Origin: Acidobacteriota bacterium
Lineage (GTDB): Bacteria; Acidobacteriota; Terriglobia; Terriglobales; Acidobacteriaceae
Reading direction: 5' to 3'
DNA: 64,000 bases
Assembly: GCA_021779935.1 (NCBI GenBank)
Contig: JAJXZT010000017.1
Location: 1 to 64,000 of the forward strand
Part shown: positions 41,606 through 56,855 of the stretch, in pieces
Layout of the letters: every line of letters starts with the position of its first letter
Numbering within the stretch: position 1 is the first letter of the stretch
Program-made: the position numbers and the translations under genes
Notes under the pieces: model-generated
The model's database searches: none
What the model saw: the letters and a program-made list of their open reading frames with translations, nothing else
Told to the model about the DNA's origin: nothing

Positions 41606-41638
41606 CCTCCCGGCGATCAATTGCTTTCCAGCGGGGTG

Positions 41639-41676
41639 CCCCACGTTCGCGCCCCGCTGTTGGGCGATAACGTGGG
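41639..41676 (+). repeat. GTGCCC-type palindrome, copy 1
   Basis: CCCCACGTT ... AACGTGGG arms with an inner CGCCC/GGGCG stem and loop CGCTGTT. It is preceded by GTG and lies 34 bp after purM. A heptamer array follows directly. Confidence 0.8.
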
Positions 41677-41740
41677 ACTCGTCATTCATACTTCGTCCTT
41701 CGTACTTTCTTAAATCCGGCAATCCGAAAATTCGCCCATC
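41677..41740. repeat. Degenerate 7/8-bp-period array
   Basis: Steps such as CGTCATT, CATACTT, CGTCCTT, CGTACTT, followed by 8-bp steps AATCCGGC, AATCCGAA, AATTCGCC. It adjoins palindrome copy 1. Confidence 0.6.
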
Positions 41741-48098: not shown

Positions 48099-48115
48099 TG
48101 CGCGAGTGCCCTGCA

Positions 48116-48145
48116 TTCGTGTCCCGTTGTTGGACGATAACCCGG
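48116..48145 (+). repeat. GTGCCC-type palindrome, degenerate copy
   Basis: GTGCCC followed by a decayed stem, then TTCGTGTCC (CGTTGTT) GGACGATAA and CCCGGG. The loop and inner stem match copy 1; the outer arms no longer pair well. Confidence 0.5.
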
Positions 48146-48153
48146 GAAAGTCA

Positions 48154-52500: not shown

Positions 52501-54294
52501 GTGAAAGCTTCCCGCACCCCTCCGGCCGTTCCGCCGACTCAGCAGCGCGGTGATTACGTCACTTCGCTTGCCAGTGCTGTCTGGCGGTTGGGCCAGCACC
52601 AGTCTGTCGAAGACCTTGTCGCCGATGTCACTGCCGGCCTCTTCTCCGGCTTTGACGCCTCGCGCGCCGAGCTCTGGCTCTGGGACGACGGCGGCAACTC
52701 CGGCTACCTCACCGACGAAGCCGGCGCTGAAATCGCTCACCGCCACGACTATCTTCTGATCAACGAAGGCCCCATCGGCACCTCTGTCGCCTCGCGCGAA
52801 GCCGTCTTCAATCAGAGCGTCGATCTTCTCGATCTCGTGCGCAAGAGCGCGCTCACCCACTTCAGTGCCTTTCCGCTCGCCGCGCATCACCGCGTCACCG
52901 GAGTCCTCGTTGCCTACTCCTCCGGTCCTGCCTCCGCCGATCTCCTCAAGTGGTGGAAGATGTATGCCGACGTTGCCGCTCTTGCCGCGCAGCGTGTCCT
53001 CAACGCCACCGAGAGCCATCGCCAGATCCAGCAGCTCTCCCTGCTCTTTGAAGCCACGCGCCTGCTCAACTCCACCCTCGATCTCGCCGAACTCCTCGAC
53101 CTCATCCTGCGCATTGCCAAGACCGAGGTGAAGGCCGACCGCGGCACCGTCTTCCTCGCTGACATGAAGCGCCGCGAACTCTGGTCCATCGTCGCCCAGG
53201 GGCTCGACAGCCAGGAAATCCGCGTCCCTTTCGGCAAGGGCGTCGCCGGACACGTCGCCGAAAACGGCGAAGCCATCAACGTCGAGGATGCCTACACGCT
53301 TCCGTTTTTCGACCAGAGCTTCGATCAGAAGTTCGGCTATCGCACCACTTCGCTGCTCTGCCTGCCCATCCGTCATCACTCCAACGAAATCGTCGGCGTC
53401 ATCCAGTTGCTCAACCACGCCGGCGGACGCTTCTCTGCCGATGATCAGGCATTCCTCACCAAGCTCAGCGGACACATGGCCATGGCGCTTGAGAACGCCC
53501 GTCTCCATCACGAAGCGCTTGAAAAGCAGCGCATGGAGCGCGACCTCACCGTCGCCCGCCAGATCCAGCGCAGCCTCATCCCCGAAACTCCGCCCACGCT
53601 TCACGGTTACGACATCGCTGTCACCTACGAACCCTGCTTCGAGTGCGGCGGCGACTACTACGACTTCCTCTCGCTCGGTCCGCAGACCATGCTTGTCGTC
53701 ATCGCCGATGTCGAGGGCAAGGGCGTCGCCTCGGCCATGGTCATGAGCAACCTCCAGGCCACCCTGCGCGCGCTCTGCATGCACCTCCACTCGCTCGAAG
53801 TCCTCATGCTGTCGTTGAACGAAATGATCTACAACGACACCAAGAGCCAGAAGTACCTGAGCTGTTTCGTCGGACTCATCGATACTCGCCGCAACGGTCT
53901 CCACTACATCAACGGCGGCCACTGCCCGCCCTTCCTCATCAACGCTGCGGACGGTTCGTTCACCCTGCTCGACAAGGGCGGCACCGTCGTCGGACTCTTC
54001 CCCGACTCCGAGTACGAACGCGGCACGCTCCAGATGAATCCCGGCGACATCCTCGTCTGCTCCACCGACGGCATCACCGAAGCCTGCAACGTGCAGGAAG
54101 AGGAACTCGGCCCCGAGGGACTCGCCGCGCTCATCAACAAATACCGCGATCTCTCCGCCCAGGAAATCGTCGACCGCGTCCTTGTCGAGGTCAACGAGTT
54201 CTCCAAGGACGGCCCCCTCATCGACGACAAAGTCCTCATGGTCATCAAGGTCACCAACGGCGGCCTCTGGGAACAAGCAACAAAGAAATCCTGA
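52501..54294 (+). CDS. GAF-GAF-PP2C protein serine phosphatase (RsbU-like)
   Basis: A 597-residue cytosolic regulator from GTG 52501 (the upstream open frame looks non-coding). GAF-like domain 1 (about 20-165), GAF domain 2 (about 185-340, FGKGVAGHVAENGEAINVEDAY), helical linker with EKQRMERDLTVARQIQRSLIP (about 345-365), and a PP2C/SpoIIE domain (about 375-590) with the metal-binding Asps in GGDYYDF, VIADVEGKG and STDGITEA. It probably dephosphorylates an anti-sigma-factor antagonist in a partner-switching pathway; no partner is encoded nearby. Confidence 0.9.
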   Translation: MKASRTPPAVPPTQQRGDYVTSLASAVWRLGQHQSVEDLVADVTAGLFSGFDASRAELWLWDDGGNSGYLTDEAGAEIAHRHDYLLINEGPIGTSVASREAVFNQSVDLLDLVRKSALTHFSAFPLAAHHRVTGVLVAYSSGPASADLLKWWKMYADVAALAAQRVLNATESHRQIQQLSLLFEATRLLNSTLDLAELLDLILRIAKTEVKADRGTVFLADMKRRELWSIVAQGLDSQEIRVPFGKGVAGHVAENGEAINVEDAYTLPFFDQSFDQKFGYRTTSLLCLPIRHHSNEIVGVIQLLNHAGGRFSADDQAFLTKLSGHMAMALENARLHHEALEKQRMERDLTVARQIQRSLIPETPPTLHGYDIAVTYEPCFECGGDYYDFLSLGPQTMLVVIADVEGKGVASAMVMSNLQATLRALCMHLHSLEVLMLSLNEMIYNDTKSQKYLSCFVGLIDTRRNGLHYINGGHCPPFLINAADGSFTLLDKGGTVVGLFPDSEYERGTLQMNPGDILVCSTDGITEACNVQEEELGPEGLAALINKYRDLSAQEIVDRVLVEVNEFSKDGPLIDDKVLMVIKVTNGGLWEQATKKS

Positions 54295-54314
54295 TAAGTG
54301 AAAATTTCGGGTGG

Positions 54315-54343
54315 CCCATGCGAGCCGACTTTGCTCGCATGGG
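54315..54343 (+). repeat. GTG(G)CCC-type palindrome in the 54.3-kb cluster, copy A
   Basis: CCCATGCGAG(CCGACTTTG)CTCGCATGGG, preceded by GTGG and followed by ATCG. It is 20 bp after the phosphatase gene; no T tract. Confidence 0.75.
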
Positions 54344-54358
54344 ATCGAATTCTTCGTG

Positions 54359-54396
54359 CCCTACCCTTGTCGCCCGCTGTTGGCGACAGGGTGGGG
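54359..54396 (+). repeat. GTGCCC-type palindrome, copy B
   Basis: CCCTACCC-T-TGTCGC, loop CCGCTGTTG, GCGACA-GGGTGGGG, followed by TCGTT. Confidence 0.85.
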
Positions 54397-54418
54397 TCGT
54401 TCGCTTTTGTATTTCTTC

Positions 54419-54445
54419 TCGAAACTTGACACTTGAAACTCGAAG
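54419..54445. repeat. Heptamer array
   Basis: Steps TCGAAAC, TTGACAC, TTGAAAC, TCGAAG. Confidence 0.65.
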
Positions 54446-54459
54446 CCGTCGTCGGGGTG

Positions 54460-54485
54460 CCCCGTCCTAACTTGTTAGGGCGGGG
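54460..54485 (+). repeat. GTGCCC-type palindrome, copy C
   Basis: CCCCGTCCTAAC(TT)GTTAGGGCGGGG with one G-T pair, preceded by GTG and followed by TCGTT. Its arms differ completely from copies B and D. Confidence 0.85.
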
Positions 54486-54524
54486 TCGTTGCTCTTGCAG
54501 TTGTCGTTGCTCTTGCCTTTCTTC

Positions 54525-54557
54525 TCGACACTCGAAACGTGAAACTCGAAACTTTGT
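54525..54557. repeat. Heptamer array
   Basis: Steps TCGACAC, TCGAAAC, GTGAAAC, TCGAAAC, TTTGTTC. Confidence 0.7.
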
Positions 54558-54565
54558 TCTTTGTG

Positions 54566-54603
54566 CCCTACCCTTGTCGCGCGCCGTTCGCGACAGGGTG
54601 GGG
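54566..54603 (+). repeat. GTGCCC-type palindrome, copy D
   Basis: CCCTACCC-T-TGTCGCG, loop CGCCGTT, CGCGACA-GGGTGGGG, followed by TCGTT. It is like copy B but with the inner stem extended by one matched base pair. Confidence 0.85.
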
Positions 54604-54631
54604 TCGTTGATTTTGTTACCGTATTCCCTGA

Positions 54632-54659
54632 CGACGGACGGCCAACGACCGACGACGTT
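54632..54659. repeat. Heptamer array
   Basis: Steps CGACGGA, CGGCCAA, CGACCGA, CGACGTT. Confidence 0.6.
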
Positions 54660-54666
54660 ACGGGTG

Positions 54667-54705
54667 CCCCGCGTTCGCGCCCCGCTGTTAGGCGATAACG
54701 TGGGG
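54667..54705 (+). repeat. GTGCCC-type palindrome, copy E
   Basis: CCCCGCGTT ... AACGTGGGG with an inner CGCC/GGCG stem and loop CCGCTGTTA. Closely related to copy 1 at 41639. Confidence 0.8.
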
Positions 54706-54733
54706 ACTTGGCTACACAACTCCTAAGCGCGGT

Positions 54734-54973
54734 TCATCCCTTGCGCACAAAATGCTTTTCGAATAATTCGCGGGAGCGCCTTACGCCTTCTTCGGTCAGA
54801 ACCACCGACTTCGCCCTGCCTTTGGGATCGGAGATATATCCCTTCTCGTGCAGCCGATCCATAGCATCCCAGTCATGACCTTTCCATGCCCGCTTTCCTG
54901 GCGGATCGTCATGCGTCGTCAAAAACAACAGAGCCAAGACCAGCTCATCGACTTTGTCCCGGTTGTATTCCAT
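54734..54973 (-). CDS. Small DUF6429-like protein
   Basis: A 79-residue protein from ATG 54973, preceded by a strong AAAGGAGG site. Sequence pattern MEYNRDKVDELVLALLFLT, GHDWDAMDRLHEKGYISDP, KSVVLTEEG. The winged-helix-like look (small, helical, with a basic beta turn) and the pattern match what I know as the DUF6429 family. Function is unknown. It lies directly beside the palindrome cluster. Confidence 0.8.
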   Translation of the reverse strand: MEYNRDKVDELVLALLFLTTHDDPPGKRAWKGHDWDAMDRLHEKGYISDPKGRAKSVVLTEEGVRRSRELFEKHFVRKG

Positions 54974-55173
54974 GCTGCCTCCTTTCAACCGCAGAATTTC
55001 GCCGTAATCTTAGCACTGCGCGTCTCTGTCTCACTGGCGCAATCTTCCCGGGATGGTCATATTCACCCGCAGGTATTCATGCAGGCCCAGTCGCCTTCAA
55101 CTGGGCGGCTCCAGGTGCAAGCAGACTGAGTTTGGGATAGTACACGGAACAAATGTCTTCACAGATTGACGGG

Positions 55174-56672: not shown

Positions 56673-56810
56673 ACTTTGCCTTCAACTTAAAACTAATCGA
56701 CTCATTTTCCTGGCCCCGACCGAATCTTGCATCAATCGCCTTCTATTCTCCTAATTTAGATGTGATTTTTCTTCAAGACTCTGCGCCCGGTGTGCACGCG
56801 CAACCAACTG

Positions 56811-56849
56811 CCCCACGTTCACGGCCCTCTTTTGGCCGATAACGTGGGG
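56811..56849 (+). repeat. GTGCCC-type palindrome, 56.8-kb copy
   Basis: CCCCACGTT ... AACGTGGGG arms with an inner GGCC/GGCC stem (loop CTCTTTT), preceded by CTG. Confidence 0.8.
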
Positions 56850-56855
56850 AGCGTG

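Follow-up and report, generated by a model that had tools for sequence, protein, structure and literature searches.

The window analysed here, a 64,000-nucleotide stretch of acidobacterial DNA, contains, downstream of a phosphatase-like gene that ends at position 54294, a cluster of five short hairpins (A to E), all of them on the plus strand and with the starts of B, C, D and E spaced by 101, 106 and 101 bp (Table 1). A reading of this DNA made from the sequence only had described five self-complementary elements with constant ends, different arms and, in several cases, a common type of loop, and all five are present. Their ends, however, are near-constant rather than constant, as hairpin A starts with GTGGCCC instead of GTGCCC and ends in GGGATCG, hairpin E ends in GGGGACTT, the GGGGTCG end is limited to B, C and D, and the CGCTGTT/CGCCGTT-type loop is limited to B, D and E. 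As single-stranded DNA, each of hairpins A to D folds better than all 200 of its dinucleotide shuffles (z −3.8 to −4.7), while the fold of E is weaker (z −1.5), with 15 of the 200 shuffles equal or better. Integron attC sites were considered and rejected as an identity, since in and around the five copies the motif RYYYAAC does not occur and GTTRRRY occurs as one stray.

Table 1. Hairpins, accompanying tracts and cognate transposase genes. Positions are those of the window unless a contig is given; scores are in bits against covariance model R1, and z refers to the fold as single-stranded DNA.
Feature	Position	Strand	R1 score	z	Arms and remarks
REP copy A	54311..54347	+	36.4	−4.1	ATGCAAGC/ATGCGAGC; head GTGG, end GGGATC
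REP copy B	54356..54401	+	69.2	−4.7	ACCCTTGTCGC; cognate RAYT P0003 (contig C63); identical arms beside RAYT L015/L164
CTYGAAA tract, degenerate	54420..54446
REP copy C	54457..54490	+	41.7	−3.8	GTCCTAGC/GTCCTAAC; cognate RAYT P0001; arm type also beside RAYT L013
CTYGAAA tract, degenerate	54526..54552
REP copy D	54563..54608	+	69.6	−4.5	ACCCTTGTCGC, as copy B; loop differs from B
Period-7 tract, degenerate	54633..54658				ACGACGG ACGGCCA ACGACCG ACGACGT; between copies D and E
REP copy E	54664..54706	+	42.7	−1.5	ACGTT/AACGT
Further dispersed REP copy	41633..41682	+	33.7		E family
Further dispersed REP copy	56810..56850	+	29.3		E family
Weak REP-like match	48103..48151	+	22.1		E 0.009
RAYT P0001	C15:107529-108095				flank arms GTCCTAGC; on the contig of the hairpins, outside the window
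RAYT P0002					flank arms TTCAAGC
RAYT P0003	contig C63				flank arms ACCCTTGTCGC or ACCCTTCTCGC

The five hairpins belong to a large family that is dispersed through the genome. The pattern GTGCCCN{20,45}GGGGTCGTT gave 11 genome matches versus none for its reversed control, and covariance model R1, which was built from 20 copies, found at least 146 matches (lowest E-value 2e-15) in the genome of 4.49 Mb, a count that is a lower bound because scoring covered 150 of 2066 first-look candidates. Over the window and 40 further stretches (835 kb) there were 161 matches at E ≤ 0.1, although these stretches were sampled around matches, and so were picked for containing hits, and the counts are clustered. 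Only two of the copies analysed lie inside a predicted gene; gene prediction relied on a simple hexamer-based script, which is adequate for direction and not for exact starts. That the arms vary and yet stay complementary, as had been claimed, was borne out in three sets of sequences. Cells in which both sides of a pair have changed number 30 in the 20 copies (9.0 ± 2.2 after shuffling) and 244 in 148 distinct rows from the source genome (75 in the control), and 141 distinct rows from the transposase loci of other genomes described below likewise have more covariation than controls made by shuffling and by sliding. The compensatory variation is therefore real and it is the fold that is conserved, but much of the variation separates arm families that are each tied to their own transposase and does not reflect selection on a single host RNA.

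The sequence-only reading had recognised no named family, but the hairpins do fit a named kind, REP elements and their associated RAYT transposases. The genome contains five Y1_Tnp genes, four of which score above the NCBIfam REP_Tyr_transpos cut-off and one of which is of the plain IS200 type. Three of the four RAYT-scoring genes (P0001, P0002 and P0003) have cognate hairpins on both sides. These three score 103–121 bits against NF047646 (cut-off 80) and lie below the IS200 cut-off of 55, their HVH and Y...NP motifs are invariant, their identity to the first of them is 58%, and P0003 aligns with E. coli TnpAREP (PDB 4er8). The other two Y1 genes, one RAYT-like (L016, G000 C3:33207-33485) and one IS200-like (L012, G000 C4:38624-38944), had no hairpins of the family beside them that were detected by the scans used.

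Among the 141 dispersed copies in the aligned set, P0003-type arms are carried by 58, P0001-type arms by 16 and P0002-type arms by another 16, and 8 have no family assignment. The E family, with 29 copies, and the A family, with 14, are those for which no RAYT was found in the genome; a RAYT with E-type arms occurs in Ca. Angelobacter RYN_9 (L109). The A and F families have a GTGG head and most other families a GTGC head, and with regard to the canonical GT[AG]G, GTAG is absent from the 5′ foot and is found directly 3′ of the stem in many copies. In one TTCAAGC-type REP (L155:346-444, G000 contig C13) the loop contains a second, unrelated hairpin that looks perfect (TGTCTAGTCCCAAGACA...), as if another element had been inserted there.

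The association between hairpins and transposases extends to other genomes. When GTDB genomes were scanned with the RAYT alignment, 80 loci were retained, all of them labelled as Acidobacteria, Terriglobia or members thereof, in which the typical unit is REP(+)-RAYT-REP(−), with the plus repeat ∼40–80 bp before the gene and the minus repeat overlapping its 3′ end or located just after it. In the 78 usable RAYT ORFs, model-detected repeats were present upstream of 38, downstream of 41 and on both sides of 32, repeats in the wrong orientation were rare (2 upstream and 7 downstream), and about half of the ORFs lacked a model-detected repeat on one side or the other. The core arms of the two repeats of one RAYT have a similarity of 0.79 versus 0.29 between loci, and the distance between REPs tracks the distance between the proteins (Mantel rho 0.62, p ≤ 0.0005, permuted maximum 0.40, n = 30). 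The arms thus co-diverge with the transposase, which makes them look like RAYT-specific recognition sequences, and such a role has been reported for the repeats of Stenotrophomonas (PMC2817692). Relatives with few or no R1 matches can still carry RAYTs, perhaps because R1 is tuned to the source genome. In one relative (G015), near-equal RAYT matches occupy equal positions at two contig ends (C31:7-504 and C55:7-504), suggesting a multicopy RAYT in that relative, and this is unusual for RAYTs.

Wobble pairs indicate which strand folds, since G.T on one strand is A.C on the other. At well-paired stem positions, G.T was counted 281 times versus 3 for A.C in the RAYT-locus set and 200 versus 18 times in the own-genome set, where the alignments were fitted to the pairing model and the cells count sequences, not events. 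Conservation therefore applies to the fold of the strand that carries the GTG head 5′ (the head-5′ strand), and as DNA this strand is also the stabler of the two by a small margin (median difference −0.9 kcal/mol). One alternative is that the hairpins act at the RNA level, as intrinsic terminators, 3′ mRNA stabilisers or regulatory hairpins under selection in the transcript, as might be expected of G+C-rich hairpins that are in many cases followed by T-rich DNA and that are found mostly between co-directional (80 copies) or convergent genes (42) and rarely between divergent ones (10). However, gene direction is ignored by the copies between co-directional genes, 43 of which are oriented with transcription and 37 against it, and an intrinsic terminator, which needs to be oriented with the upstream gene, was rejected on this basis. 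The corresponding figures are 15:14 in Acidobacterium sp. S8 and 17:7 in Occallatibacter savannae. In addition, Rfam covariance models gave no match to positions 54000-55000 up to E 1, and the arms follow the transposase, not the adjoining gene. A strand-specific fold that is indifferent to gene direction points to folded single-stranded DNA, and an RNA-level function is very improbable. Hence, of the proposal that selection acts on folded RNA or DNA, the conserved fold is upheld and the RNA side is not.

Copies on any one contig are nearly all on one strand. In most 20 kb stretches the sign of the G-C skew is equal in plus-strand genes, minus-strand genes and intergenic DNA, and so mainly reflects the replication strand, and relative to this skew 134 of the 141 dispersed copies (134:7) are opposite the G-rich strand. 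By intergenic skew, 34 stretches agree with the bias and 5 disagree. Without the copies that adjoin a decayed RAYT fragment on contig C3, the bias is 131 of 137 (131:6); the exception there is explained by a decaying REP-RAYT-REP unit. At this site (L147, G000 contig C3:35797-37707), RAYT fragments corresponding to profile positions 111-180 and 141-177 are located between oppositely oriented REPs. Among these mostly draft genomes the bias is 41:1 in O. savannae and 50:7 in Acidobacterium sp. S8, and it is 11:2 versus the local skew in sampled stretches of the single-contig genome of KBS 146, which had looked unbiased from its match list and whose skew changes sign several times along the chromosome. 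By comparison, E. coli K-12, sampled as six stretches of 50 kb, has 66 REP heads that are split 34:32, and REP neighbours in those stretches are inverted in 40 cases and direct in none. Neighbours within 300 bp in the acidobacterial set, with RAYT-flanking copies left out, are direct in 38 cases and inverted in none, and the clusters were thus rejected as BIME- or REPIN-type inverted pairs.

The G-rich strand is usually the leading strand. Both rpoB and rplB are on the G-rich strand in the source genome, as is rpoB in O. savannae and KBS 146, while rpoB of Acidobacterium sp. S8 adjoins a skew switch, and dnaA, considered as an origin marker, is on a 34 kb contig whose G-C skew does not flip. 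From the positions of rpoB and rplB we infer that the G-rich strand is also the leading strand here, and if this is the case, the head-5′ strand belongs to the leading-strand template and is identical in sequence to the nascent lagging strand.

Such a polarity might in principle reflect selection rather than insertion. If the hairpins were polar chromosome-architecture signals of the KOPS/AIMS type, maintained in the terminus-ward direction, the strong replication-strand polarity seen in four genomes would be expected, but this is improbable given that each arm family matches a transposase, that a common signal is confined to the ends, the arms being different within a genome and from one genome to another, and that the bias is equal for all arm families. 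Similarly, insertion might occur in both orientations and be followed by biased loss, whereby the stabler hairpin on the lagging-strand template is deleted faster. The slightly greater stability of the head-5′ strand is consistent with this, as the surviving orientation places the weaker fold on what is probably the lagging-strand template. Yet the bias is 66:2 where both strands fold within 1 kcal/mol of each other and 6:0 where the reverse strand folds more stably, and E. coli REPs are unbiased, so that biased loss has a very low probability as the cause.

The low-complexity tracts that accompany many copies were also considered. The source genome has an excess of TTTTGC and CTYGAAA tracts on the 3′ side of the copies, in the strand that carries the copy. 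The degenerate heptamer tracts (CTYGAAA)n are found in the hairpin cluster (Table 1) and in own-genome stretches L127-L166, and CTYGAAACTYGA is on the C-rich strand at 43:0 near REPs and at 36:3 away from them. Tracts of TTTTGC/TTTTGA come after the GGGG(T)[AC]GTT end in several arm families (e.g., L127, L130, and L149) and are missing from the A family and from RAYT-flanking copies. T-rich or heptamer tails of this type might indicate a short reverse-transcribed element that is inserted at the replication fork in the manner of some retroelements. However, no CTYGAAA heptamer tracts were found in the stretches of three other genomes, which are equally biased and essentially free of tracts, and copies lacking a CTYGAAA/TTTTGC tract within 400 nt are still biased by 32:3, and the tracts were accordingly rejected as the cause of the bias. 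As the arms are already explained by their coupling to RAYTs, a reverse-transcribed origin is extremely unlikely.

We therefore favor, with a probability of about 0.8, the explanation that the five hairpins are REP elements that are recognised by RAYTs, that fold as the head-5′ strand and that were inserted singly with a polarity relative to the replication fork, the copies having most likely been spread by the matching RAYTs. According to this model, REPs would be short mobile repeats that are non-autonomous and function in single-stranded DNA form, and each arm family would be recognised by its own RAYT, an HUH/Y1 tyrosine transposase whose gene is situated between two inverted cognate repeats. 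The constant ends (GGGTG[CG]CC head and GGGG foot) may serve as shared recognition or processing signals, the self-complementary variable arms would give the enzyme its specificity and change jointly with it, and the head-5′ strand would be the one whose fold is functional. Dispersed copies would be inserted as single units with their polarity fixed relative to the fork, which would place the copies of one replichore on a common strand and make direct arrays of clusters such as A to E. The cutting and joining are presumably performed by the RAYT, and the bias probably arises at insertion and not by later selection.

Several observations do not fit this explanation easily. Most copies have a GTGC head versus the canonical GT[AG]G, the A and E families have no RAYT in the genome, and, if the G-rich strand is leading, the head-5′ strand is on the other template from the one that the simplest IS608-like model would predict. 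Because IS608 acts on the lagging-strand template (PMC6006769), either the active strand would be the complement, which the G.T/A.C wobble asymmetry disfavors, or the repeat would be joined into the nascent lagging strand. We put forward the latter tentatively, as a rather unlikely but specific mechanism in which the nascent lagging strand receives REPs as single-stranded head-5′ units, with a polarity opposite to that of IS608, for example at Okazaki-fragment gaps where a free 3′ end would attack the RAYT-bound repeat. This would explain the presence of the folded strand on the C-rich strand, the single directional copies and the direct clusters.

A REP population that is ∼95% strand-polar, independent of genes and of hairpin stability, suggests that the spread of REPs is tied to the replication fork, and a polarity that is seen in four Terriglobia genomes and is absent from the E. 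coli stretches provides a clue to how REPs are copied. The dissemination of REPs has been described as poorly understood, while cleavage by RAYTs is known in vitro (PMC8266576). The acidobacterial system makes it possible to test which strand is active, what the mobile unit is and which side of the fork is involved, and its matched RAYT/arm pairs are a set from which hairpin specificity might be decoded.

Among the closest known systems are the REPtrons, the combinations of REPs with a RAYT/TnpAREP in enterobacteria, Pseudomonas and Stenotrophomonas (PMC2817692, PMC6006769, PMC8266576). Like the elements described here, these are short imperfect palindromes that carry a head on the 5′ side and conserved irregularities in the stem and that have numerous intergenic copies; in both, a RAYT lies between inverted copies, each RAYT has one arm family, and repeat and transposase co-diverge. 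They differ in that the head here is mostly GTGC, the copies are single and directional and form direct clusters instead of inverted pairs, and there is a strong replication-strand bias, of which there was none in the E. coli stretches tested. REPINs and BIMEs are likewise dispersed REP populations thought to be moved by RAYTs, but their unit is the inverted pair (PMC3116915), an arrangement opposite to that of the direct neighbours found here. A literature search, made mostly outside subscription papers, returned no report of a replication-strand bias of REPs, and the nearest precedent found for the polarity is Pseudomonas fluorescens SBW25, in which tandem arrays of REPs are forward on one side of the chromosome and reverse on the other (PMC3116915). 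The IS200/IS605 elements (IS608, ISDra2) share HUH/Y1 enzymes, folded single-stranded DNA and a link to the lagging strand (PMC6006769), whereas P0001-P0003 score below the IS200 cut-off and above the RAYT cut-off, and the polarity of the folded strand appears to be opposite to that of IS608, provided that the G-rich strand is leading.

In Acidobacteria themselves, RAYT-like transposases with inverted-repeat flanks, termed TIRYTs and TIRtrons, were described in Koribacter, Terriglobus, Acidobacterium and Granulicella (Di Nocera et al., 2013; PMC3733652). Their flanks were classed as long terminal inverted repeats with no relation to GTAG REPs, and one of them is a repeated family in Koribacter versatilis (PMC3733652). 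Compared by description, the flanks reported here are likely to be identical with those repeats, and the differences are that they are self-folding REPs with at least 146 dispersed copies, several cognate families per genome and a polarity. What appears to be new, then, is that acidobacterial RAYTs are flanked by self-folding REPs that have many dispersed copies and several cognate families in one genome, and that these copies occur in direct arrays with a strong replication polarity.
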